Source of the DNA: Mycobacterium vicinigordonae | GTDB taxonomy: Bacteria; Actinomycetota; Actinomycetes; Mycobacteriales; Mycobacteriaceae | Assembly (NCBI RefSeq): GCF_013466425.1 | Contig: NZ_CP059165.1 | Location: forward strand, 4,092,001-4,156,000 | DNA: 64,000 nt | Reading direction: 5' to 3' | Part shown: positions 45,660 through 64,000 of the stretch, one piece after another | Position numbering within the stretch: the stretch's first letter is position 1 | Layout of the letters: every line of letters starts with the position of its first letter | Translations under genes and position numbers: made by a program | Notes under the pieces: model-generated | Seen by the model: only the letters and a program-made list of their open reading frames with translations | Told to the model about the DNA's origin: nothing | Databases searched by the model: none

Positions 45660-48600
45660 TCAACCCTCGGCGAGCACCTCTTCGTCGGTCAACGCCGCGA
45701 TCTCGAGATAGTGGCGCGCGATTACGGCCAGTCGCTGCGGCGTGCCCCGTTGAGCCTCGCGCGTTTCCAGCCGGTCGGCCAGGCCGGCGACCGTGCGAGT
45801 CGCGAAGAGATCGGTGACCACCGCGTGGTCGACGTCGAGCCAGTCGCGGATTCGGGCGATGACGGTTGTGGCCAGCACCGAGTCGCCGCCCTGGGCGAAG
45901 AAGTCGTCGTGCACGCCGATCGACGAGCGGCCCAGTACCTCGGCGACAATGTCGGCGACCGCCGCTTCCACATCGGTGCCCGGTGTGCCGGCTCCGGCTT
46001 GGAAGGCCTCGGCGGCGTCCGCTGTATCCGACACTCGCGGCTCTAGCAACGCAATCACCGCGCGTCGGTCGAGCTTGGCGTTGGCGGTCAGCGGCATCTG
46101 CGGAAGGACGACGATGCGACTGGGAACCATGTAGCTCGGCAGCAGCTCGCCGAGGGCCTCGGTGAGCCGGGCGGCGTCACCGATTTCGGCCGGTTCGCCG
46201 GCGACGGCGGCGACGAGCTTGGGCGCCCCGGTGCCAACGACCGCGACGACGGCATGGCGTACCCCGGGCACGGTGCGCAGTGCGCTCTCTACCTCGCCGA
46301 GCTCGACCCGATATCCGCGGATCTGCACCTGATGATCGGCTCGGCCCAGGAACTCGATGGTGCCGTCGGGCCAATACCGGGCCAGGTCGCCGGTCTTATA
46401 CCAACGGATTCCGTCGTGCTCGACGAAGCGCTGCGCGGTTCGTTCGGGGTCGTTGCGGTAGCCGGCGGCCACGTTGGCGCCACCCACCCAGAGTTCGCCG
46501 GGCACCCAGTCGAGGCAATCCCGGCCCGACGGAGCGACCACCCGGCACCGCACGTTGCGCAGCGGGACGCCGAACGGCACCGTGGCCCAGTGCGCCGGAG
46601 GCGCGCCGCTCACCTCGCAGATGGTGCTGTGGATGGCGGTCTCGGTTGCTCCGCCCAAACCGGAGAACCGGCAATCGGGAACCTGGCGGGCCAATCGCCG
46701 GGCCAGGTCCGCGCCGACCCAGTCGCCGCCTAGGATCACCGCACGCAGCGAATCCCCCAACTGGTCACCACCGATCTCCAGGATCATGTCCAGCATGCTG
46801 GGCACACAGTTGAGGATCGAAACTCGGTGTCGGCGAATCAATTCCACCCACGAAGCGGCTGCGGCTCGTTCCTCGGCATCGATCGCTACGACAGTCCCCC
46901 CGACGGAGAACATGCCGAACATGTCGTACACCGACAGGTCGAACTCGAGGGCCGACAACGCCAGCGCGCGGTCGTGGCCGCCGACCCCGAACCAGTCGTT
47001 GACGGCGTCGATGGTGTTCATCGCCGCGCTGTGGGGCACCTCGACGCCTTTGGGCTGTCCGGTGGAGCCCGAGGTGAACAGCACGTAAGCGATCGCCCCA
47101 GTATTCGGAACTATCGGCGCCGGAAGGGGTTTGGTGTAGGTGCGGGCGGTGTCCAGGGACAGACAGGGCACCCCGGCGCCCAGGTTAGTTCCGCCCAGCG
47201 TCAGTGCTGCCACGACATCGGCGCCCTGCAGGATCTTGGCCTGTCGCGCTTCCGGCTGATCGAACCCGATCGGCACATACGCGCCACCGGCCGCAAGCAC
47301 CCCCAGGACGGCGACGATCTGGTCGCGCCCCTTGGGCAATTGCACGCCGACCGCGTCGCCGGGCTGGACACCCTGCCCGCACAGCGCCCCCGCGACTGCC
47401 AGAGCCGATTCGGCGAGTTGGCCGTAATTCCAGGACCCAGCGGTGTCGCCGCTGCCCCATACCACCGCCGGCGCATCCGGATTTGCGGTCGCGTGCTCGA
47501 AAAATCCTTGATGCAAACATCTCTGGCTGACCGGCCCGTCGGTGGCGTTGGTCGCCGCACGCACCGTCGCCTGGGCGCTCGGCAGCCGCACCGCGGCCTC
47601 GGCTTCCCAGCCGATGTCACCCTCGCCGAGGCGCTCGACCGCTTCGACGAACCTGTCGAACATGGCCTCGATCAGCCCGTCCGGGAATGCCGATTCCCGG
47701 ACGTCCCAGTTGATCAGCAATCCGCCTCGCAGCTCGGTGATTTGAGCGTCCAGCAGCACCTGTGGGCCTTGCGAAATGATCCAGACGGGCTCGCCGAACG
47801 TGTCGATCACCTGGTCGGTGAACAGCTCACCCAAGTCCAGGGCGCTGGTGAACACGATGGGCGCCAGCACCGGCTCGCCACGTTGCCGGCCCAGGTCACG
47901 CAATACATCCAAGCCGGAATATGCTGTGTGGGATCCGCTTTCGTACATACGGCGCTGGATATCGCGGGCCCGTTCGGCCACCGACACGTTCTCGGTGACG
48001 TCGACCTCGAGCATGATCGAGGAGGTGAAGTCGCCGACTACTCGATCGATGTCGGGATGCACCGTCTCGCGTTGGAACAGTGGGATGTTCAGGAGGAACC
48101 TGCTCTGAGCCGACCACCCGCCGATGGTGTCGGCGAAGACAGCGGCCAGCACCGTGGCCGGGGTGACGCCACGCGCGTGCGCTCCCGTAACTAGCGTCCG
48201 CTTGGCATCTGGCCCCAGCCAGTGGTCGTGGCGGACGGTGCGATACGGTGCGCGCCACTCGCCCGCCGCCACGGTCGGCAGTTCGGGCGCACCCGCCATT
48301 TCGGGTAGACGCTGCTGCCACCAACGCCGGTCTTGGTCGCGCGCCCCGGCGTGTTCGCGACGTTCGGTCCGGTATCGCCGGTAGCTATAGCCCGGGGTGG
48401 GCAGCGTCGCACCGTTGTACGCCTCGGCGAGATCCGCGACCAGAATCCGGTAGCTCATCGCGTCACCGGCCAGCATGTCGATATCCAGGTGCAGTCTGCT
48501 ACGGTCGCCGTCCCGCAAAGTCAGGGTGATGTCGAAGACCTGCCCATCCTCGATCGCCAAGCGCTGGTGGGTCTTTCGGTCGCGCAGCTCATTTAGTGCC

Positions 48601-49196
48601 AACTCGGCGCTGGCTGGTTCCTGGCCGCGCAGGTCGACCACGGCGAAGACCGACCGACCTGGCTCGGGCATCGTCTGTTGTGTACCGTCCGGAAGGAATC
48701 GGGTGCGCAGCATCGGGTGGGCCGCCACCAGATCGGCCACCGCGCGTTCCAGCCGCACCGGGTCCGCGCCGGTCCCATCGAACTCCACGTAGAGGTGCGC
48801 GGCAACGCCGCCGAGCTCCTGCGCATCCTGCCGGCCGATCCAATACGCGTGCTGCATGGCAGCCAACGGGAACGGGTCGAATTCATCCGCCGGCTCCGCC
48901 GCCGAGGAGACGACCGGCTCAGCGGCGCCGTCGGGTTCGCCGTCAAGGGCCAGCAGCCCGTACCAGGAGTCCACCGTAGGGCTGGCGGCAAGCTGGGCGA
49001 ACGTGACGTCGGCACCGCGCTTGCGCCACCCGCCCGCCATCGACATCATCCGGATCGAGTTCAGCCCAAGCTGGATCAGGTCGTCGTGATCGGCGACTTC
49101 CTCCGCAGCGCAGCCCAGTTGCGCCGCGATCGTAGCCTTGATCTCGTCCCTGGTGATCCTGTGTTCGGTGTCGCGCACTCCGTGCAGCGGCTCCAT
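45660..49196 (-). CDS. mbtB: Mycobactin synthetase MbtB (aryl carrier-cyclisation-adenylation-PCP, no TE)
   Basis: A 1178-residue NRPS. The domains in order are: an aryl carrier (1-75, Ser near residue 48 in LGLNSIRMMS), a heterocyclisation domain (about 90-530, motif DMLAGDAMS near 242), an adenylation domain (about 560-1060, A3 motif TSGSTGQPKG near 709) and a PCP (FFAQGGDSVLA near 1104). It should load salicylate (via MbtA), activate Ser or Thr and form the phenyloxazoline ring. The ~230-residue thioesterase that ends M. tuberculosis MbtB (1414 residues) is absent. ATG 49196 was chosen over ATG 49202 because of spacing to GAGAGGGG. Last gene of its operon. Confidence 0.93.
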   Translation of the reverse strand: MEPLHGVRDTEHRITRDEIKATIAAQLGCAAEEVADHDDLIQLGLNSIRMMSMAGGWRKRGADVTFAQLAASPTVDSWYGLLALDGEPDGAAEPVVSSAAEPADEFDPFPLAAMQHAYWIGRQDAQELGGVAAHLYVEFDGTGADPVRLERAVADLVAAHPMLRTRFLPDGTQQTMPEPGRSVFAVVDLRGQEPASAELALNELRDRKTHQRLAIEDGQVFDITLTLRDGDRSRLHLDIDMLAGDAMSYRILVADLAEAYNGATLPTPGYSYRRYRTERREHAGARDQDRRWWQQRLPEMAGAPELPTVAAGEWRAPYRTVRHDHWLGPDAKRTLVTGAHARGVTPATVLAAVFADTIGGWSAQSRFLLNIPLFQRETVHPDIDRVVGDFTSSIMLEVDVTENVSVAERARDIQRRMYESGSHTAYSGLDVLRDLGRQRGEPVLAPIVFTSALDLGELFTDQVIDTFGEPVWIISQGPQVLLDAQITELRGGLLINWDVRESAFPDGLIEAMFDRFVEAVERLGEGDIGWEAEAAVRLPSAQATVRAATNATDGPVSQRCLHQGFFEHATANPDAPAVVWGSGDTAGSWNYGQLAESALAVAGALCGQGVQPGDAVGVQLPKGRDQIVAVLGVLAAGGAYVPIGFDQPEARQAKILQGADVVAALTLGGTNLGAGVPCLSLDTARTYTKPLPAPIVPNTGAIAYVLFTSGSTGQPKGVEVPHSAAMNTIDAVNDWFGVGGHDRALALSALEFDLSVYDMFGMFSVGGTVVAIDAEERAAAASWVELIRRHRVSILNCVPSMLDMILEIGGDQLGDSLRAVILGGDWVGADLARRLARQVPDCRFSGLGGATETAIHSTICEVSGAPPAHWATVPFGVPLRNVRCRVVAPSGRDCLDWVPGELWVGGANVAAGYRNDPERTAQRFVEHDGIRWYKTGDLARYWPDGTIEFLGRADHQVQIRGYRVELGEVESALRTVPGVRHAVVAVVGTGAPKLVAAVAGEPAEIGDAARLTEALGELLPSYMVPSRIVVLPQMPLTANAKLDRRAVIALLEPRVSDTADAAEAFQAGAGTPGTDVEAAVADIVAEVLGRSSIGVHDDFFAQGGDSVLATTVIARIRDWLDVDHAVVTDLFATRTVAGLADRLETREAQRGTPQRLAVIARHYLEIAALTDEEVLAEG

Positions 49197-49226
49197 GATC
49201 ATCCCCTCTCGGCCTCCACCTTGCGG

Positions 49227-53771
<4,545 letters not shown>

Positions 53772-53778
53772 CAGAGCC

Positions 53779-56700
53779 TCACGAGCGGCTCTGCCACGCC
53801 GCGGACAGTGCCGCGAGCGCGTCCGCGTCCAAGCCCGAGGCGCTCATCGGCGCGGCCGACGGTTGCGCCTCGGAATCCGCTGTGGCCACGGGCGCGGCAC
53901 CGGCGGCATCGACGGATGCGGCCAGCTCGGCGAGAGTCATGTACTCGAACACCATCGCCGGCGTCAACGCCAGTCCCTGCGCGTTGGCGCGGGCCGCAAG
54001 CTGCACCGAGATGATGCTGTCGCCGCCGATCGCGAAGAAGTTGTCCTCGCGGTCGACGTCGGTGATGTCGAGCAACTCCTCCAGCAACGCGATCAAGGTC
54101 CGCTCGGTCTCCGCAGAACCTTCGCCGAGTTCCGAGCGTTTGACCATCGCGGGGGTGGCCGGGGCGAGCAACCGCTCCATCGCCTCCGGCGGCAGCAACC
54201 GCACCTGCGAAAGCGGCCGGTCCGGCTCGGTTGCCAAGAACTCGAGCGCGGTGTCGAACGCCGCTCCGATCGACGAAACCGTTTGGGGCTCATACAGATC
54301 AGCGTTGGCGACGACGCGGACACTCAGCTCGGCATCTGGGGTCACGTCCAGCGAGACGTTCAAGTCCAGCAGCGAGATCTCGAAGTCCATTGGGACGGGG
54401 ACCACCGTCGTCGCCCCGTCGCGGGTCAGCTCCCGGGGCAGCAGCGCCCAGTCCTCGCCACGGAAGTGGATCGAATTTTGGAACAGCGGGTGATTGCGAG
54501 ACGGGGAGCGCGGCGGGTTGAGCGCCTCGACTAGTCGCTCGATCGGCAATTCCTGATGCGCCAGCGCATCGAGCACGGCGCCGCGGCTGCGGGAAACGAT
54601 GTCCCGCAGGCTCGGATCCCCGGACAGGTCGTTGCGCAATACCATCACATTGGCACACGGACCCACCATGTTGGTGGTGGCCAAGTCGACTCGGGCGGCG
54701 ACCGGACTGCCGATGCCGATGTCGGTGCCGCCGCCGAGCTTGTGCAACAGTACTGCGAGCGCGGCCTCGTACACCATGAACTCGCTGGCGCCGAGGTCGT
54801 CGGCGAGTCGGACCAGCGCTGACCGTCGCGACGCTGACACCGTGAAATTGACTAGCTCACCGCGCTTTCCGAGGACCGGCGGCCGGGTATGGTCTGCCGC
54901 CATCGGGATCTCGTAGGGCATGCCGGAGACCGCGGTGTGCCAGTGCTGTAGTTGGGCCTGTCCCCAGTCGGTGCTCGCCTCGAATGTATTCCGTTGCCAG
55001 AGTGCGTGTTCGGCGAACTGCGCGGCCATCGATCCCCACTGCGGCGGATAGCCGTCCAGCCGTGCCCGGTATGCGGTGAGGAGGTCTTCGAAGATGATGC
55101 CCATCGACGAGTGGTCGGTGACGGTGTGGTGGATGAGCAGCAACAGCACGTGCGCGGACGGGCCGAGCCGCAGCAGGGTGGGCCGTACCAGAGACTCGGA
55201 GTCCAGCGCGAAGATGTGGCGACGCAACTCTGCGATGGCCTGGTCCAATTCCCCGCCGCCGACATCGATGATCTCGAGCGGCACCTCCCGCGCCGGGTGG
55301 ATATGCTGATACGGAACACCCTCGTGCTCAATGAAGTTAGTGCGCAGCGCTTCGTGGCGGGCGACGACGTCGTTGATGGCGGCCTCGAGCACCGCGACGT
55401 CGAGCGGGCCGTGCACCCGAAGCGTCAGCGCCATGTTGAAGACGTCGTTGGCGCCCCTCATCTTCTGCTGGAACCACATCGCCATCTGCGAGTAGGACAG
55501 CGGCGGGCGCTCCGGACGTACGTCAGTCAACTCCGGTCGGGCCGGGCCTTCGGAACCAACGACGTTGCGCTGGGCCGACATCTCGTCGATGTCGGCGTGG
55601 ACCTCGGCGCTCAACTGCTCAACCAGTCGTGCCGCCAGACCGGCCGGCGTGGGGGTGTCGAACACCGCGCGCACCGTGAGTTCCACGCCGAACTGCGCTC
55701 GGATCTGAGCCACCAGCCTGGCGGCGAGCAGCGAGTGGCCACCTAGGCCGAAGAACGAGTCCTCGGCGCCGACCTTCTCCCAGCCGAACAGCCGGGCGAA
55801 GATCCCGCACATCCGTCGTTCGGTCTCGGTGGCAGGTTGCCGGAAACTGCGCACCGCGACCGGTGTCGGTGCGGGCAGCGCCCGCTTGTCCAGCTTGCCG
55901 CTGACCGTCAGCGGGATCTCTGGGATGACCGCGAATGCGGTGGGCACCATGTATTCGGGCAGAGTCGCGGCCGCGTGGGTGCGCACCTCGTCGAGATTCA
56001 GCGCACCGGAATCACCGTCGCCGGTGGCCGGCACCAGGTAGGCCGCGAGCATGGGGCCGGCCTCGGTGTCCTCGGTCACCACCAGGCAGTGCCGGACGGC
56101 GGGATGGGTCGCGATCACCGACTCGACCTCACCGAGTTCGATCCGGTAGCCACGGACTTTCACCTGCTCGTCGGCGCGGCCGACGAACTCCAGCTGACCA
56201 GAGATGTTGCGGCGAACCAAATCTCCGGTGCGATAGAGCCGCTTCCCGGGATTGAACGGGTCGGCGACGAAACGCGCCGCGGTCAGTCCGGGACGGCCCA
56301 GATAGCAGCGGGCCAGCTGTGCGCCACCGAGATAGAGCTCCCCGATCACTTCGGCGGGCACCGGTTGCAGTTCCTCGTCGAGCACATATGCGTAGACGTT
56401 GCGGTTCGGCCGACCGATGGGAACCACCCGCGCGCCGTGCGACCCGTCGACCACCATGTGCGTGGCGCAGACCACCGCTTCGGTGGGCCCGTAGTGGTTG
56501 CGCAGCTGCGCGTCGAAGTAGCCGGCGAACTTGTCAGCCACCTCCCCGGCCAGCGCTTCACCGCCCACCGGCACGTGGCGCAACTGCCGCCATTCCTCGG
56601 CCTGAGGCAGCAGCAACAGGGTGCTCAGCATCGACGGCACCATGTGCAGCACGGTGATACGGTGCCGGCTGATCAAGTCGGCGATGTAACTCATGTCGCT

Positions 56701-58809
56701 GAAAGCCCCGGTGTCAGATGGTTTCGGCACCACGAGCTGAGCGCCCAGCGAGAGTGTGACGAAGATGTCCAGCAGGGAAGCGTCGAAGCTCACCGAAGAC
56801 GACTGCAGCAGGCGATCTTCGGCGGTCATGCTCCACTCCGCCGCGAAACCCTGAACGTGCTCGGCGATGGCGTGGTGGGACACCGCGACACCCTTGGGCT
56901 GACCGGTGGAGCCTGAGGTGTAGATGACATACGCTAAATGTGCTGGCCGCAAATCCGTTTGGCGATCAGAGTCGATGACCGGAGCATCGGAGCGCTGCGC
57001 GGCGGCTCGTTCGGCGTCGGTGAGTTCTCGTTGCCCGAGCACCAGGTGTGGCCGCGCGTCGCTGATCAGATAGTCGATCCGGTCGTCGGGATAGGCCGGG
57101 TCGATCGGCAGGTAGGCCGCACCGGCTTTGAGCACCGCCAGCATTGCGACGATGAACTCGACAGACGTCGCCAGCCGCAGACCGACGATGTCCTCGGCGC
57201 CGATTCCCTGCTCGATCAGCCAGCGCGCCAGGCGATTTGCCCGGCGATGCAGTTCGTCATAGGTCAGCATTTCGTCGTCGCACACTAGGGCCGTCGCATC
57301 CGGTCGAGCCTCGGCGGCCGCTTCGAGCACGGCGACCATGGTGGTCGGCGGGGTGGGAACCAGTTCTCCGTGCGACTGGGCCAGCACCGCCTCGCGTTCG
57401 TCGGCGTCGAGCATATCCAAGCTGGTGAGGCGGCGGTCAGGCTCGGTAATCGCGTTGTCCAGCAACTGAATGTAGTGAGCCGCCAACTGTTCGACGAGTG
57501 CCGGGCCAAGCACATCGGTCTGATACTCGAACTCGGTCAAGACTCCGTCGGGTTCCAGCACGACGGCCAGGGCAAGGGGCAGATGCGCGGTCACCGCGCC
57601 GAGGCCGAGTTGTTGCACGGTCACGCTGTCCAGGGTCAATCCGCTCACGCTCTTGCGCATGCTGAATCCCAACCGCACGAGTTGGTCCATGCCGTCGTGG
57701 CCCATGCGCTCGGGGTTGGCCTCCCGCACCACCCGGTCGATACCGACTGACTGATGGGCGAACCCGTCCAGGCAGGTATCGCGGACCGTGTCGACGAAAT
57801 CGCCGAAATTGACATTCGGTCGTGCGGTCAGGCGGAGCAACAGCGTGTTGCCGAAATAGCCAATCACTTTCTCGGCCAAGGCTTTTCGATCGGTTACCGG
57901 CACCGATACCAGGAAGTCTGAGCTACCGGTGTAGCGCCGGACTAACACGCCGTAGGCTGCCAGCAGCACCATGAACGGCGAGGCGGAGTGCCGCCGGGCG
58001 AAGTCCTCCAGCCGGTCGAACAGGCCCTCTGGCAAGGACTGGGTCACTCGCTCGGCGAGCCGCGACGGGTGTGCGGTGGGGACACCGGGCAACTCAAGCG
58101 GCTCGGGCGCAGGCCGTAGTTTGTCGGCCCAGTAGCCGACGTCGGTCATGCTGGGTTCGGCTGCGCCCTCGAGTACTTCGACCGCGACGAACTGCGGCGC
58201 CGGTCCCCCGAGCGGTTGGCCGTTGTAGGCCGCGCTCAGCTCGCCGAAGAACACCGCCCAGGCGTCGTCGTCCCAGCAGATGTGATGAACGACGAGTAAC
58301 AGCACGAATTCTTCCGGCCCGGTCCGGATCAGGGTGATCCGTAGCGGCACGTCGTTGGCCAAGTTGAATGGTCGCCCAAATTCCTGGCGCGCCGTTTCCG
58401 CCACCCGCTGGTCGCGTTCGGCCTCGCCCAGGCCGGTGAAATCGTATTCCAGCCAAGGTGTCTCGACATGATCCTGAAATACCTGGTATGGCTCGCCTTC
58501 GCTGTCCACTCCATAGCTGGTGCGCAGCAGGGCGTGTCGTGCGACCACGTCACCGACGGCCGCCCGAAGGCGAGCTGGATCCACCGAGCCGGTCAGCCGA
58601 TAGGCGACGCAGATGTTGAGCGTGGTGTCCTCGACGTCCATTGCCTGCAGGAACCACATGCGTCGTTGTCCGGCGGAAAGGCGGTAGCGCTCCCCCGCCC
58701 TGAGCTGGACCGTCTCGGCCGACTTCCCTGCCGCTAAACCACTTTCGGCGATCCGGCGGCGCAACAACTCGCGACGACGTTCCTGCAGGGTCTTGGCATC
58801 GTCCGCCAT
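53779..58809 (-). CDS. mbtE: Mycobactin synthetase MbtE (C-A-PCP-C-PCP)
   Basis: A 1676-residue NRPS, near the 1682 residues of MbtE. Domains: condensation (about 40-450, HHICWDDD near 180), adenylation (about 480-980, A3 TSGSTGQPKG near 630), PCP (GLGGHSLLA near 1021), a second condensation-type domain (about 1100-1540, HHTVTDHS near 1228) and a second PCP (IGGDSIISV near 1596). In mycobactin this enzyme uses the first N-hydroxylysine, acylated at the side-chain nitrogen. It starts at ATG 58809, 33 bases after the formyltransferase stop, so it shares that operon and its iron box. Confidence 0.92.
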   Translation of the reverse strand: MADDAKTLQERRRELLRRRIAESGLAAGKSAETVQLRAGERYRLSAGQRRMWFLQAMDVEDTTLNICVAYRLTGSVDPARLRAAVGDVVARHALLRTSYGVDSEGEPYQVFQDHVETPWLEYDFTGLGEAERDQRVAETARQEFGRPFNLANDVPLRITLIRTGPEEFVLLLVVHHICWDDDAWAVFFGELSAAYNGQPLGGPAPQFVAVEVLEGAAEPSMTDVGYWADKLRPAPEPLELPGVPTAHPSRLAERVTQSLPEGLFDRLEDFARRHSASPFMVLLAAYGVLVRRYTGSSDFLVSVPVTDRKALAEKVIGYFGNTLLLRLTARPNVNFGDFVDTVRDTCLDGFAHQSVGIDRVVREANPERMGHDGMDQLVRLGFSMRKSVSGLTLDSVTVQQLGLGAVTAHLPLALAVVLEPDGVLTEFEYQTDVLGPALVEQLAAHYIQLLDNAITEPDRRLTSLDMLDADEREAVLAQSHGELVPTPPTTMVAVLEAAAEARPDATALVCDDEMLTYDELHRRANRLARWLIEQGIGAEDIVGLRLATSVEFIVAMLAVLKAGAAYLPIDPAYPDDRIDYLISDARPHLVLGQRELTDAERAAAQRSDAPVIDSDRQTDLRPAHLAYVIYTSGSTGQPKGVAVSHHAIAEHVQGFAAEWSMTAEDRLLQSSSVSFDASLLDIFVTLSLGAQLVVPKPSDTGAFSDMSYIADLISRHRITVLHMVPSMLSTLLLLPQAEEWRQLRHVPVGGEALAGEVADKFAGYFDAQLRNHYGPTEAVVCATHMVVDGSHGARVVPIGRPNRNVYAYVLDEELQPVPAEVIGELYLGGAQLARCYLGRPGLTAARFVADPFNPGKRLYRTGDLVRRNISGQLEFVGRADEQVKVRGYRIELGEVESVIATHPAVRHCLVVTEDTEAGPMLAAYLVPATGDGDSGALNLDEVRTHAAATLPEYMVPTAFAVIPEIPLTVSGKLDKRALPAPTPVAVRSFRQPATETERRMCGIFARLFGWEKVGAEDSFFGLGGHSLLAARLVAQIRAQFGVELTVRAVFDTPTPAGLAARLVEQLSAEVHADIDEMSAQRNVVGSEGPARPELTDVRPERPPLSYSQMAMWFQQKMRGANDVFNMALTLRVHGPLDVAVLEAAINDVVARHEALRTNFIEHEGVPYQHIHPAREVPLEIIDVGGGELDQAIAELRRHIFALDSESLVRPTLLRLGPSAHVLLLLIHHTVTDHSSMGIIFEDLLTAYRARLDGYPPQWGSMAAQFAEHALWQRNTFEASTDWGQAQLQHWHTAVSGMPYEIPMAADHTRPPVLGKRGELVNFTVSASRRSALVRLADDLGASEFMVYEAALAVLLHKLGGGTDIGIGSPVAARVDLATTNMVGPCANVMVLRNDLSGDPSLRDIVSRSRGAVLDALAHQELPIERLVEALNPPRSPSRNHPLFQNSIHFRGEDWALLPRELTRDGATTVVPVPMDFEISLLDLNVSLDVTPDAELSVRVVANADLYEPQTVSSIGAAFDTALEFLATEPDRPLSQVRLLPPEAMERLLAPATPAMVKRSELGEGSAETERTLIALLEELLDITDVDREDNFFAIGGDSIISVQLAARANAQGLALTPAMVFEYMTLAELAASVDAAGAAPVATADSEAQPSAAPMSASGLDADALAALSAAWQSRS

Positions 58810-58842: not shown

Positions 58843-59781
58843 TCAGGCCTGGTCGGTCAGATAGCCGCCGCGCAGGAAGAACTCATCGCCCCGGCGTTCG
58901 ACTCCGTCGGTGCCGCGGACCAGGGTGATCACCAGGCCGCGGTTGGCGCCGCGATACGCATTGGGCCCGGATACCACCGCGCCGCCTTCTTCCTGCACGA
59001 TCACCCGCCCCGGCGTTCCACCGTAGCGGGCTTCGGACACCCGAGCCTGCAGTACCTCGATGCGTTCGCCACGGTAGTGGGTGTACGCGCGCGGGTAAGG
59101 GTCCGACAGGGCTCGCACGAACCTTTCCAGGTCCTCGGCCGGCCAACTCCAGTCGATCAAGCTGTCCCGCTCGGAACGCTTGTGGAAGTAGGTTCGTTCA
59201 GCCTTGTTCTGCGGCCGCCACACCGCGGTGCCGGTATGCAGCGCGTCCAGCGCTTCCCGCAACACGCCCGGGATCAGCTCCATACCCTTGACGACCAATT
59301 CGGTGCCGGTGTCGTCCGGGCCGATCGGCAACGATCGCTGGACGAGGATGTCACCGGTGTCGAGTCCCTCGTCCATGCGGTGCACGGTCAAGCCGAACTC
59401 GGTTTCGCCGCTAATCAACGCCCATAGCACCGGGGAGAAACCGGTGAACTTGGGCAGCAGCGAATCATGCAGGTTAAGCGTGCCGTGCGGCGGCATCGTG
59501 TACAGCTCAGGCGGCATCCAGCTGTACCAGCTGTTGACGACTATCACGTCGGGCTCGGCACGTTTCACGATGTCGATGGTCTCGGCGTCGGCGCGGGTGG
59601 TGACGTGGACCCGGATGCCGTGTTCGCGGGCGAGTTCCTCGACCGAGGCCGACCAGATGGCTTTGTAGGACTCGGCACTGGCCGGGTGGGTGACCGCGAG
59701 GACAACGTCGTGGCCCAGCTCGATCAGTGATTGCAGGGTCTTGTGCCCCCAGGTCTGGAAGCCGAACGACACGACGCGCAT
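58843..59781 (-). CDS. Formyltransferase for siderophore biosynthesis (10-formyl-THF dependent, FxbA-like)
   Basis: A 312-residue formyltransferase-fold protein. The catalytic set Asn103-x-His105 (LNLHDSLLP) and Asp141 (LDTGDIL) has the same spacing as Asn108/His110/Asp146 of E. coli methionyl-tRNA formyltransferase. The tRNA-specific loop of Fmt is not visible; residues 29-43 read AVTHPASAESYKAIW. A C-terminal OB-like region is present. FxbA of M. smegmatis exochelin is the best-known analogue. ATG 59781 follows GAAGGGGG by 9 bases; a TTG three codons upstream is less likely. It is first in the operon with mbtE-F-B and lies next to an iron box. It probably N-formylates hydroxylysine or a related amine; substrate is inference. 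Confidence 0.85.
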   Translation of the reverse strand: MRVVSFGFQTWGHKTLQSLIELGHDVVLAVTHPASAESYKAIWSASVEELAREHGIRVHVTTRADAETIDIVKRAEPDVIVVNSWYSWMPPELYTMPPHGTLNLHDSLLPKFTGFSPVLWALISGETEFGLTVHRMDEGLDTGDILVQRSLPIGPDDTGTELVVKGMELIPGVLREALDALHTGTAVWRPQNKAERTYFHKRSERDSLIDWSWPAEDLERFVRALSDPYPRAYTHYRGERIEVLQARVSEARYGGTPGRVIVQEEGGAVVSGPNAYRGANRGLVITLVRGTDGVERRGDEFFLRGGYLTDQA

Positions 59782-59849
59782 CGGATTCAACCCCCTTCGT
59801 CATGTAGGTCTGGACGCCACCCGCGCCGGGTCAATCCGGCCTCAGCAGA

Positions 59850-59868
59850 TTATGTTAGCCTTCGCTAA
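59850..59868. promoter_or_regulatory. IdeR-type iron box 1
   Basis: TTATGTTAGCCTTCGCTAA agrees with the IdeR/DtxR consensus TTAGGTTAGSCTAACCTAA at 16 of 19 positions, counting W and S degeneracies. It lies between the divergent formyltransferase (69 bases upstream of its start) and acyltransferase genes (28 bases before its ATG). With iron, IdeR would shut off both operons. The identity to the second box extends to 24 bases (59850-59873). Confidence 0.82.
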
Positions 59869-59895
59869 GTTGCGAAGTTTTGGCGGCCGTCGGTC

Positions 59896-60639
59896 ATGGC
59901 CGCTTGTCGAACCACTCCCCGCGTGTACGACCTACGCGGCGCCGGCCGCCGCCATCGCGTCGCGACTCGGGTGGGAATTGCCGATTTGGCGGAGGCTACC
60001 GGCGTGGAAGTCCAAGACCTCGAGCAGCGATGCGCGCGTATCGTTGCTCCCGGAACGACGTACCGGAGTTTTTCGCTGCAGCGCGTGCAAGCCGATCGCG
60101 ACCTCGAACTCGTGCACACCTGGATGAACGACCCTGTGGTAGCCCGCTTTTGGGGCAAGCCGTGGCCACGCGACCGAATCGCGGACTACTTGGCCGAGCA
60201 GGACCGCAGCGCCATCTCCAAGCCCTACCTGGGCGTGCTGGACGGCGTTCCCATGAGCTATTGGGAGCTCTATCGCGCTGACCTCGACCCGCTCGCGGAC
60301 CATTACCCCGCCCGCGACCACGACGCTGGGGTGCATCTGCTGCTGGGACCCCCCTCCTACCGCGGCCGCGGCCTCGGGGTGCTGCTGTTGCGCACCGTCT
60401 CCGGCTGGCAATTCGACGCAGATCCACGAGCCACCCGCGCGATCGCCGAACCCGACATCGCGAACGTGCGATCAATCCGCGCGTTCGAACGTGCGGGATT
60501 CCGCCGCGACGCCGAGATGGCCCTGCCGAACAAGCGGGCCGCACTGATGATTCGTGACCGCCACCACTCAACCGGGCCGGTATCGGGCTCGGGACGCCGG
60601 ATAGGTACCCCACCCGAGGGACCGACCGAATTATGTTAG
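59896..60639 (+). CDS. Siderophore-type GNAT N-acyltransferase
   Basis: A 247-residue protein with an N-terminal extension (1-50) and a GNAT domain of the MbtK/IucB/RhbD group. Motifs are VHTWMNDPVVARFWGKPW, the YWELYRADLDPLADHYPA segment, GVHLLLGPPSYRGRGLG (acyl-CoA pyrophosphate loop) and AFERAGFRRDAEM. Such enzymes acylate the side-chain amine or hydroxylamine of lysine/ornithine. MbtK, which places the long acyl chain of mycobactin, lies outside the main mbt cluster in M. tuberculosis, so this gene is an addition here. ATG 59896 follows iron box 1. Its last codons and TAG stop form the start of iron box 2. Confidence 0.82.
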   Translation: MAACRTTPRVYDLRGAGRRHRVATRVGIADLAEATGVEVQDLEQRCARIVAPGTTYRSFSLQRVQADRDLELVHTWMNDPVVARFWGKPWPRDRIADYLAEQDRSAISKPYLGVLDGVPMSYWELYRADLDPLADHYPARDHDAGVHLLLGPPSYRGRGLGVLLLRTVSGWQFDADPRATRAIAEPDIANVRSIRAFERAGFRRDAEMALPNKRAALMIRDRHHSTGPVSGSGRRIGTPPEGPTELC

Positions 60640-60649
60640 CCTTCGCTAA
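60631..60649. promoter_or_regulatory. IdeR-type iron box 2, overlapping the acyltransferase stop codon
   Basis: Identical 19-base box to that at 59850, with identity extending to 24 bases (60631-60654). It sits 121 bases before the thioesterase ATG. The last two codons and stop of the acyltransferase gene (TTA TGT TAG) are the first nine bases of the box. It gives the thioesterase-mbtC-mbtD operon its own iron control. Confidence 0.82.
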
Positions 60650-60769: not shown

Positions 60770-61531
60770 ATGCCGCGCACACTTGGGTGGATCAGGCAGT
60801 TCCACAAACCTGAATCGCCGGACAGCCCGACGCTGTTGGTGTTTCCCCACGCGGGCGCCGGCGCATCGGCTTACCGCGCCTTCTCCAAAGCTTTGAGCAG
60901 CAAATTCGACGTCATCGTATTCCAGTACCCCGGACGTCAGGACCGCGCGGCCGAACCACCGTTGGGTTCACTACCTGAAATCGCCGCCGGCGCCTTCGAG
61001 GAGTTCGCACGATCCGAACACAATCGCGATGTCCCCGTTGCGGCATTCGGGCACAGCATGGGCGGCTGGGTGGCGTTCGAGTTCGTCCGGATCGCCGAAG
61101 CCAACGGCGTCGAGATCGGCCAACTCACCGTCTCGGCCGCGGTCGCGCCGTGCAACGCGGCGAACAAGCCCTCCCACCCCGAGTCCGACGAGGAGATTCT
61201 CGACCACCTCGCGGCGCTGGAGGGCACCAACTCCGACGTCTTCGGCAACCGTGACCTGATGCGGCTGGCGCTGCCGGTCATCAAGGCGGACTATCGCGCC
61301 TGCGATGCTTACACGCGCGACGAGGACGTCAGGATCTCCGCGCCAATTCATGCGCTCGGCGGCGATCAGGATCCGATCGTCACGCTGGGTGACCTCTACG
61401 GATGGGGCAAGCACACCGACTCCGTCGAAGTGACGATGTTCGACGGTGGGCACTTCTTCCTCAACGAACACACCCACGCGATCGCTGACGTGCTGACCGG
61501 CGAACTGCGGCAGTCCGGGTCGAAGTCATGA
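60770..61531 (+). CDS. mbtT: Stand-alone (type II) thioesterase of the mycobactin locus
   Basis: A 253-residue alpha/beta hydrolase of the NRPS/PKS thioesterase family. It has LLVFPHAGAGASAYRAF at the N-terminus, the nucleophile in FGHSMGGWVAFE (Ser near residue 94), an acid in GGDQDPIV and the histidine of FDGGHFFLNEH near residue 228. The closest match from memory is the thioesterase domain at the end of M. tuberculosis MbtB. It probably edits mischarged carriers or releases the product in trans. ATG 60770; its stop overlaps the mbtC ATG (ATGA). The symbol mbtT is used for stand-alone mycobactin thioesterases. Confidence 0.85.
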   Translation: MPRTLGWIRQFHKPESPDSPTLLVFPHAGAGASAYRAFSKALSSKFDVIVFQYPGRQDRAAEPPLGSLPEIAAGAFEEFARSEHNRDVPVAAFGHSMGGWVAFEFVRIAEANGVEIGQLTVSAAVAPCNAANKPSHPESDEEILDHLAALEGTNSDVFGNRDLMRLALPVIKADYRACDAYTRDEDVRISAPIHALGGDQDPIVTLGDLYGWGKHTDSVEVTMFDGGHFFLNEHTHAIADVLTGELRQSGSKS

Positions 61532-62862
61532 CCTACGGCCGGTCCGTGACAGCCGACTCGACCGAAGACCACATCGTCATCTCCGGGTTGGCAGTCGAGG
61601 CGCCCGGCGGCATCGACACGCCGGTCAGCTTGTGGCACGCGCTCACCGAATCCAGGGAGCTGATCGGCCCCTTCCCGCGGGACCGCGGCTGGCCACTCGA
61701 CGACCTATTCTCGGTATCCGAGATGGACGGCTGGGGCCCGGTCCACGACGCCGGCGGTTTCCTCGACAACGCAACAACATTCGATCCGGCATTGTTCGGG
61801 ATCACCCACCGTGAAGCACTTGTCATGCATCCCCAGCAGCGCGTCGCGATGCGCGTGGCGTGGAAAGCGCTGGAGAACACCGGCATCAATCCCGGGACGC
61901 TGGACGGCGAATTTGTGGGCTGCTTCGTCGGAATGTCACCGATGGAGTACGGGCCGCGCGCCTCGGTGGCCGATGCCTTCACCGGCCACCGGATCGCCAG
62001 TCTGGGCCAATTAGGCGGCGCCGCAAGGATTTCGCACAGCTTGGGCCTCACGGGCCCGTCCATCAGCCTCGACACCGCCTGCGCATCCTCGCTGACCGCG
62101 GTCCACCTGGCCGCCAGCGCAGTCGCCGGCGACGAGTGCGACTGGGCACTGGCGGGCGGGGTGTGCGTGATGGGTTCGCCAGGCGCTTTCTACGAATTCT
62201 CCCGGCTGAACGCGCTGTCCGACGACGGGCACTGTCGCGCTTACGCCAACGACGCCAGCGGCACGGTGTGGGGTGAAGGCGCGGGCATGGTGGTTGTCGA
62301 ACGCGAGTCACGGGCAAAGCGGTTGGGCCACCAGATCTATGGGCGCATCCTCGCCATCCGCACCAACCACAACGGCAAGGGCAAGCCGATCCTGGTCCCC
62401 CGCGTGCGTGCGCAGGAACAGATCGTGCGCAAGACGCTCGACGTAGTGGGAATCGACCCTGCGGACATCGGGATGATCGAGGGACACGGCACCGCAACCC
62501 AGGCCGGCGACCCGGTGGAACTGCTGGCGCTTTTCAAGACCTACGGCGCAGCGGGGTCCGAGGCGCTGCTGGGCTCAATAAAATCCAACCTCGGCCATCC
62601 CCAGGCCGCCTCCGGAATACTCGGGCTGATCAAGCTGCTGCTGGCCGGCCACTACGGACAGATTCCGCCGACACTCTATGCCGACAACCCGACCAAGGTG
62701 CTGGACTGGGACCTGGTCGGGCTGCGGCTGGCCACCAAGGTTCACGAATGGCCAGCCAAGGACGGCTTCCGTTACGGCGCAACTTCGTCCTTCGGCGCGG
62801 GAGGCGCCAATGTCCACGCCATCATCGAAATGCCCGCACCGGCAGGGGAAGTGAAGAAGTGA
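61528..62862 (+). CDS. mbtC: Mycobactin polyketide synthase, ketosynthase MbtC
   Basis: A 444-residue stand-alone ketosynthase, the same length as MbtC. The Cys-His-His triad is visible in DTACASSLT (Cys near 184), EGHGTATQAGD (His near 318) and SIKSNLGHPQA (His near 355). With MbtD it forms the beta-hydroxybutyrate unit that joins the two hydroxylysine-containing halves of mycobactin. It is coupled to the thioesterase (ATGA) and to mbtD (GTGA). Confidence 0.95.
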   Translation: MTYGRSVTADSTEDHIVISGLAVEAPGGIDTPVSLWHALTESRELIGPFPRDRGWPLDDLFSVSEMDGWGPVHDAGGFLDNATTFDPALFGITHREALVMHPQQRVAMRVAWKALENTGINPGTLDGEFVGCFVGMSPMEYGPRASVADAFTGHRIASLGQLGGAARISHSLGLTGPSISLDTACASSLTAVHLAASAVAGDECDWALAGGVCVMGSPGAFYEFSRLNALSDDGHCRAYANDASGTVWGEGAGMVVVERESRAKRLGHQIYGRILAIRTNHNGKGKPILVPRVRAQEQIVRKTLDVVGIDPADIGMIEGHGTATQAGDPVELLALFKTYGAAGSEALLGSIKSNLGHPQAASGILGLIKLLLAGHYGQIPPTLYADNPTKVLDWDLVGLRLATKVHEWPAKDGFRYGATSSFGAGGANVHAIIEMPAPAGEVKK

Positions 62863-64000
62863 CAGTTCCCGATCTTGGCGTGACCTACCGACTCCCGGAC
62901 GGCTCGACCCCGGTCCTGCTGAGTTCGGAAACCGCGGAACTGCTGCGCGCCGAGGCCGCCGCCGTCCTGGCCTATGTCATGTCGCACCCGGCCGTGTCAC
63001 CACAGGCCATCGCGCAGATGCTGTTTCGCACCCGGGCGGCCCGCAAGCATCGCGCACTGGCCATGGTCGACGGCCGTGATGATCTGTTGGCAGCGCTGCG
63101 CGCGGTCGCCGATGGTCGCGACCATCCGTCGGTAGTGAGCACCCACGGATCGGCGCCCCGTCGGCTCGCGTACGTCTTTCCGGGCCAGGGCAGCCAGCGT
63201 CCCGGGATGGGGCGGCTGTTCTATGCGATGGTCCCCGCCTTCCGCGCCGAGGCGGACCGCTGCGCGCTGGCATTCGCGGAGCAATCGGGTCAGTCGCCAC
63301 TGCCTTATCTACTCGACGACAGACTCACCACCGAGAGCGACGCTGGCACTGTGCAACCGGCCCTGTTCACGCAGATGGCTGGGCTGGCCGCGGCCTGGCG
63401 ATCGTTCGGGGTCACCCCGCACGTGACCGTCGGACACAGCCAGGGCGAGATCGCCGCCGCCTACGCTTCGGGACTAATCACGTTGGCAGATGCGGTGCGC
63501 ATCATCGGAATTCGAGCGTTGGCCGCCCGCGAGATCGAGTCAGGTGACTACTCGATGGCCGTCGCGGCGACCGACCGAGATAGCTGCGAGGACCTGCTGG
63601 CTCGGTGCACAGGCTGGGCGGAACTGTCGGTGGTCAATTCGCCGACGATGACCGGCATCTCGGGCGACCGCGACACTGTGCAGGACATCGTGGATGCGTT
63701 ATCCGAGCGCGGTGTGTTCGCGCGGGTCATCGGTGTCCGGTATCCGGCTCACACCAGCCTGATCAGCGGACTCGGCGAGGCGGTACGTACTGCCTCGCAG
63801 CATCAACTGGAGAATCCTAGATTCCTGGACAGCGAAATCCACTGTCTCGGGTCCACTCTGGGCGCGGCGATAACACCGGACCTACCAGTGGACCAGTACT
63901 GGTTCTGGAACCTTCGCAACACGGTGCGGTTCGACAAGGCGATCGCCGCGGCCGCTGAACTGGGTGTCAACACATTTGTCGAACTGGCGGAGCACCCCAC
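62859..64000 (+). CDS. mbtD: Mycobactin polyketide synthase MbtD (partial, runs off window)
   Basis: The first 380 codons of a large PKS protein; the M. tuberculosis protein has about 1004 residues. After a ~100-residue N-terminal region comes an acyltransferase domain: FPGQGSQRPGMGRLFY near residue 110, active serine in VGHSQGEIAAAYASG (near 194) and SPTMTGISGDRD. The ketoreductase and carrier domains expected further on lie beyond 64000. GTG 62859 overlaps the mbtC stop (GTGA). The frame stays open to the edge. Confidence 0.93.
   Translation, partial: MTVPDLGVTYRLPDGSTPVLLSSETAELLRAEAAAVLAYVMSHPAVSPQAIAQMLFRTRAARKHRALAMVDGRDDLLAALRAVADGRDHPSVVSTHGSAPRRLAYVFPGQGSQRPGMGRLFYAMVPAFRAEADRCALAFAEQSGQSPLPYLLDDRLTTESDAGTVQPALFTQMAGLAAAWRSFGVTPHVTVGHSQGEIAAAYASGLITLADAVRIIGIRALAAREIESGDYSMAVAATDRDSCEDLLARCTGWAELSVVNSPTMTGISGDRDTVQDIVDALSERGVFARVIGVRYPAHTSLISGLGEAVRTASQHQLENPRFLDSEIHCLGSTLGAAITPDLPVDQYWFWNLRNTVRFDKAIAAAAELGVNTFVELAEHP

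Follow-up and report, generated by a model that had tools for sequence, protein, structure and literature searches.

We consider it likely, judging by gene content, that the window (the whole 64,000-nucleotide stretch of the Mycobacterium vicinigordonae genome analysed here) holds a nocobactin-type siderophore cluster whose product is an N-formyl mycobactin-like molecule. An earlier note on this DNA had suggested an N-formyl mycobactin variant, and the genes present support that suggestion as the best reading of the locus. In the pathway we propose, an MbtG-type oxygenase would hydroxylate lysine, an N-formyltransferase (NFT) would use 10-formyl-THF to formylate the internal hydroxylysine at its N6-hydroxyamino group, and a ketosynthase (KS) and a polyketide synthase (PKS) would build a lipid tail on the beta-hydroxy acid, yielding an N-formyl, brasilibactin-like mycobactin. 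A GNAT acyltransferase encoded beside the NFT would also serve this hydroxylysine position, as a second donor whose acyl group is probably short. The acyl-donor gene would then be a module gained and lost between sister species, with the window organism in a two-donor state.

Gene content and type of the cluster

The frames of the NFT and the GNAT lie where the earlier note had placed them (Table 1), and its observation that the NFT (ATG at 59781) heads an operon continued by the MbtE-, MbtF- and MbtB-type NRPS genes on the minus strand holds as well. On the plus strand, the GNAT is followed by a stand-alone thioesterase (TE), the KS and the PKS, whose NbtC match begins at about 62883 within an open frame starting at 62748 and whose AT motif reads YPAH. 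Past the window end lie an MbtG-type oxygenase with a weak match (PF13434, 35 bits), an MbtA-type ligase that falls under the cut-off of its best model (TIGR02275, 563.6 versus 723.55), and MmpS and MmpL genes. Also outside the window are an MbtH gene at C1:4158041 and a salicylate synthase at C1:4173176-4174432, which scores 618 bits, above its model cut-off. A second large NRPS locus occurs in the genome at C1:438785-460608, where an 8214-residue frame has an MbtH gene in front of it.

Table 1. Features of the siderophore locus, with positions in the window.
Feature	Position	Strand	Evidence
NRPS, MbtB/NbtF type	45660..49202	-	1 condensation/cyclisation, 1 adenylation, 2 carrier stretches
NRPS, MbtF/NbtE type	49227..53771	-	2 condensation, 1 adenylation, 1 carrier stretch
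NRPS, MbtE/NbtD type	53779..58809	-	2 condensation, 1 adenylation, 2 carrier stretches
N-formyltransferase (NFT; Nocardia nocobactin-cluster NFT clade)	58843..59781	-	Pfam, triad, trees
Iron box 1 (IdeR-box-like), NFT/GNAT intergenic	59850..59868	.	
GNAT hydroxylysine acyltransferase, MbtK/NbtH type	59896..60639	+	Pfam PF13523, motifs, genome search
Iron box 2, copy of box 1, GNAT/TE junction	60631..60649	.	
Stand-alone thioesterase (TE)	60770..61531	+	PF00975; GHSMG motif
Stand-alone ketosynthase (KS), MbtC/NbtB type	61528..62862	+	PF00109, PF02801
NbtC-type PKS (AT-KR-ACP)	62748..64000, runs beyond window end	+	NF037941, domains

By these genes the locus is nocobactin-type (nbt) and not of the M. 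tuberculosis type. The nocobactin gene set is present, namely three NRPS, the KS, the TE, a lysine N-oxygenase and salicylate genes, together with an MbtB/NbtF-type NRPS in which a domain search gave no match to a TE domain. The full-length PKS passes the NCBI NbtC equivalog model (NF037941, 1444.8 bits against a cut-off of 1150) and fails the MbtD equivalog model (708.1 bits against 1150). The genome of the window organism was also searched for the mbt-2 genes MbtM and a separate MbtK, and neither was found there. The MbtM query was a FadD-type protein (tested against Pfam) that adjoins a canonical MbtK at locus L151 of another mycobacterium, where the neighbouring genes appear ACP- and acyl-CoA-dehydrogenase-like by eye from the list of open reading frames. 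This query had a match of 47-100% identity in 7 of 25 hand-chosen genomes, its own genome counted, while the other 18, the window organism's among them, gave matches of 36-39% identity only (best by E-value), and we take none of these in the window organism for an MbtM orthologue.

A canonical mycobactin cluster is thus ruled out by the PKS, MbtM and MbtK tests, and the earlier note's "mycobactin locus" does not apply in the M. tuberculosis sense. What the cluster does share with the mycobactin genes of M. tuberculosis (mbt-1 and mbt-2) is a homologous NRPS set and, on its other flank, hrcA, dnaJ and MTB12-family genes, which neighbour the M. tuberculosis mbt locus too. It differs in the PKS, in the MbtB-type protein, and in having neither an MbtM orthologue nor a separate MbtK. 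Since there is no MbtM orthologue, the genome has no other GNAT of this class (see below) and the PKS is of the NbtC type, a long acyl chain on the hydroxylysine is unlikely; by analogy with nocobactins, the lipid tail should be on the hydroxy acid.

Mycobactins of this general kind have been described from the genus. The mycobactin of M. abscessus (MBT Ab) is reported to be nocobactin-like, that of M. marinum (MBT M) is cited beside it, and neither bears a long acyl group on hydroxylysine (PMC9505556). The predicted product would resemble both in carrying a long alkyl chain in its polyketide portion and in leaving the internal hydroxylysine free of a long acyl group, and M. abscessus likewise does not have the mbt-2 locus (PMC9505556). 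The window cluster differs in holding an NFT and a GNAT, and the word "formyl" is absent from the text of that paper.

The formyltransferase and its relatives

The earlier note's description of an intact formyltransferase is borne out. The NFT matches PF00551 (113 bits) and PF02911 (57 bits), and its triad N103/H105/D141, counted from the ATG (N105/H107/D143 in other numbering), falls in columns that are invariant in all 109 aligned NFT rows, duplicate loci included. Its score on the methionyl-tRNA formyltransferase model TIGR00460 is 164.4 bits, under the cut-off of 201.5, while the genome's own Fmt reaches 211.6 bits; an identity as methionyl-tRNA formyltransferase is therefore rejected. A grouping with Fmt, the outcome that the earlier note had named as counting against its reading, was looked for and not seen: the NFT falls together with NFTs from nocobactin clusters of Nocardia.

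In a quick tree of 99 rows, from which 10 duplicate loci were omitted, the window NFT lies inside a 76-row clade (SH-aLRT 100, stem 0.49) that comprises all 43 rows with an nbt context; its 33 further rows are for the most part mycobacterial NFTs with other NRPS genes next to them. Outside this clade are two rows at 64% identity to the window NFT (G035 and G055) and, on a separate branch, six rows at 54-59% identity, which we presume to be FxbA, one of them having a gene for an ABC exporter next to it. FxbA of M. smegmatis exochelin is of the same superfamily and presumably catalyses the same reaction as the window NFT. A more careful tree of 35 rows separates the 9 Nocardia from the 26 mycobacterial NFTs (100/99), within NFT and GNAT trees that are poorly resolved overall.

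Identity of the window NFT to Nocardia NFTs (76-84%, median 80.4%, 9 loci) is nearly equal to that with other NFT-bearing mycobacteria (median 82.3%, 13 loci), whereas TE, KS, PKS and MbtE are 13 to 16 points less identical to Nocardia than to mycobacteria. The near-equal values fit either exchange of the NFT between the genera or slower evolution of the NFT. Approximately unbiased (AU) tests, for which the groups were chosen after the core tree described below had been seen, rejected a single group of all mycobacterial nbt NFTs that excludes those next to other NRPS genes (p 0.012), which makes some exchange of NFTs between cluster types likely. They did not reject one group for the NFTs of a 12-locus core clade (p 0.088), a group of the window with G045, G104 and G023 (p 0.33), or the counterpart grouping for the GNAT (p 0.19; 0.20 with two database proteins added). 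The nbt-cluster NFT of M. deserti (the L038/L061 pair) groups with an NFT from another context in Mycolicibacterium lacusdiani (100/97), a pairing that points to movement of NFT genes from one cluster type to another. Elsewhere, genome G031 (L102, near 9663) carries a partial NFT gene of about 90 residues, 80% identical, around which no nbt genes were found.

The closest described systems are the formyl clusters of Nocardia (terpenibactin with TerH, brasilibactin, formobactin and nocardimicin G-I), whose NFTs belong to the same clade, TerH itself being absent from our trees, and whose TE, KS, PKS and MbtE are homologous to those of the window. The window differs from them in gene order, in its Mycobacterium host, and in the GNAT beside the NFT: Nocardia nocobactin clusters are reported to hold either an NFT or a NAT, exclusively one, and the products seen by mass spectrometry accord with the gene present (PMC7413640). 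Of the marks of the TerH formyl subfamily, an NFT in the cluster and a place in the Nocardia NFT clade were found in the window, but not an NFT standing in place of an acyltransferase. With NFT-bearing nocobactin clusters already known in Nocardia (PMC7413640) and the window's layout recurring in mycobacteria, being common to the loci compared across them, the earlier note's suggestion of a new system is not supported.

The GNAT and the two iron boxes

The GNAT matches PF13523 with 166 bits (E 7e-49) and carries the HD-x-G-V-H and EPD-x-x-N motifs; alignment with relatives points to the GTG at 60004 as its probable true start. At E<=0.001 it is the only protein of its kind in the genome, and it is thus not the "extra" acyltransferase that the earlier note had seen in it. 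A family-wide search with the GNAT, aimed at the NbtH of Nocardia, returned a match in 1 of 151 genomes at 1e-35 (its own) and in 11 of 151 at 1e-20, and GNATs of the window class also occur in M. kansasii, M. gastri, M. gordonae, M. kubicae, M. intermedium and M. shottsii. In the GNAT tree, row L157 duplicates L114, and the label "canonical" on L157 is wrong.

The earlier note had placed one iron box between NFT and GNAT. That box, TTATGTTAGCCTTCGCTAA, is indeed there, but it is one of two, a second exact copy lying between GNAT and TE. A search of the window allowing up to 3 mismatches gave these 2 matches, against a maximum of 0 in 100 shuffles, and the box agrees at 15 of 19 bases with an IdeR-box consensus. 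The GNAT stop codon lies within box 2 (TTA TGT TAG), and the GNATs of four relatives (L108, L122, L124 and L125) likewise end in LC. Across loci, surveyed at a threshold of 12 of 19 bases, NFT-only loci have one box (9 of 9) and two-donor loci two exact copies (5 of 5); GNAT-only loci have two sites in 13 of 16 cases, some of them variants, and one site in the other three (L119, L123 and L126).

Two NRPS with condensation and adenylation domains at lysine-type positions, together with two donor genes, could be taken to mean that a single molecule bears a formyl group on one hydroxylysine and an acyl group on the other, as the earlier note had also suggested. In nocobactins, the second hydroxylysine forms a terminal N-hydroxy caprolactam (PMC7413640), so NFT and GNAT more likely serve one site, and the same NRPS layout also occurs in clusters that have the NFT only or the GNAT only. 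We regard a molecule with both modifications as highly improbable. For the GNAT as a working second donor at the internal hydroxylysine, we see about even chances, and this reading overlaps with that of a GNAT on its way to being lost, which is weighed below.

Distribution, gain and loss of the donor genes

We surveyed 148 genomes of the genus for NFT (at 1e-80), GNAT (1e-15) and TE (1e-40), which gave matches in 43, 110 and 113 genomes, respectively. Close TE matches (at least 57% identity, near full length) numbered 32 in 31 genomes, and 28 of these loci have MbtE beside them; four loci outside this count (G121, G103, G039 and G162) have TE-KS-PKS with no MbtE found in the stretch. Both donors are present at 2 of the 28 loci, the window and M. 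asiaticum DSM 44297 (G148); the NFT only at 6 (G045, G104, G029, G033, G145 and M. simulans, G023); the GNAT only at 16, in 15 genomes; and neither at 4 (G050, G187, G128 and G132). Named loci beyond the survey add both donors in M. asiaticum strains and M. deserti, and the NFT only in M. persicum and M. angelicum. Two loci cut by contig ends (G007 and G010) stand outside the 28 and were counted as a two-donor and an NFT-only genome in the comparison that follows.

None of the seven NFT-only genomes (the six and G010) has a GNAT at 1e-15, compared with 107 of 138 among the remaining genomes, the two-donor genomes G000 (window), G148 and G007 being set aside (Fisher p 5.5e-5, which is not a true probability since the genomes are related). 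Three genomes with neither donor in the cluster (G187, G128 and G132) likewise gave no GNAT match at 1e-15 and carry an NFT elsewhere, which means that the rule does not hold strictly at the level of the cluster. The four related clusters with neither gene beside the TE further indicate that an in-cluster donor is not strictly needed; these clusters (L127, L128, L130 and L131) bring to mind the M. abscessus mycobactin, which is reported to be without such an acyl group (PMC9505556).

These distributions bear on the alternative that the GNAT acylates the siderophore while the NFT formylates some other substrate. GNAT-only is the commonest state for this layout (16 of 28 loci), as that alternative would have it, but it sits poorly with the missing GNAT in 7 of 7 NFT-only genomes, with the NFT adjoining MbtE in every mycobacterial nbt locus where it occurs (13, the window and 12 others), and with the pairing of Nocardia NFT clusters with formyl products (PMC7413640). 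We consider it very unlikely, and retain formylation of the siderophore by the NFT as the preferred reading.

A core tree of TE, KS, PKS and MbtE (43 of 43 rows kept, each with at least 3 of the 4 proteins; a quick tree with SH-aLRT only and no bootstrap) was built from hand-picked loci, three M. asiaticum strains among them. On this tree, the NFT state requires 5 changes and the GNAT state 6. M. angelicum, with the NFT, and M. szulgai (G153), with the GNAT, are sisters (support 100); G029, with the NFT, groups with the GNAT-only G131 and G057 (100); and M. asiaticum, with both, is sister to the GNAT-only G160, G047 and G006 (100), with whose GNATs its own also group (96/88; 100/99 in a second tree). 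The window is sister to the NFT-only G045, which has no GNAT segment and whose junction consists of the flanks of box 1 and box 2. By eye, the sequence past the single box of G045 matches that after window box 1 for 11 bases, with one mismatch, and then passes into the sequence after window box 2; G045 lacks the "gcggccgtc" that stands after box 1 in the window and after the box of G104 and of G023. The junction and the missing bases favour deletion of the GNAT in G045 over insertion in the window. The deletion seems to have occurred beside the repeated boxes; the break is just past the box and not within it, a position that gives no support for box-to-box recombination. The MbtE and PKS frames of G045 (L103) appear split, through sequencing error or decay.

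The apparent deletion in its closest relative raises the possibility that the window GNAT is a relic being lost, as in G045, and that the NFT alone sets the product, which would be formylated in this case too. The next relatives, G104 and G023, are also without a GNAT, and in the trees the GNAT of the window sits on a long terminal branch (0.40-0.43). Against this, its frame and motifs are intact, a box stands on each side of it, and the three M. asiaticum strains hold both genes under purifying selection: low dN/dS for GNAT (0.08-0.14) and NFT (0.08-0.09) indicates that both are kept there. Between two of these strains (L008 and L009), GNAT dS is 0.52, compared with 0.26 for NFT, 0.19 for TE and 0.20 for KS, which hints at recombination at the GNAT. 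Loss in progress is a lesser but real possibility; formylation is expected either way. More tentatively, the acyl-donor slot of nbt clusters may be exchangeable, sister species losing GNAT or NFT, keeping the pair or replacing one by the other, with at least one deletion beside the boxes, and two-donor species making mixed formyl and acyl siderophores. The window organism may itself make such a mixture; the joint effect of the two donors is a guess on our part because the reported clusters of Nocardia each have a single one of them.

Formyl nocobactins from Nocardia and nocobactin-like mycobactins are already known, and we found no report of an N-formyl mycobactin from a Mycobacterium in the literature searched, which covered few subscription journals. 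By gene content, the N-formyl prediction for Mycobacterium is a strong one. N-formyl mycobactins are predicted in the genus more widely, with an NFT in the cluster of M. persicum, M. simulans, M. angelicum and M. asiaticum, and the rule that the donor gene sets the structure could be tested by siderophore chemistry in a few species. Since the sister loci of M. angelicum and M. szulgai differ in donor gene, the rule would bear on which species can share a siderophore.
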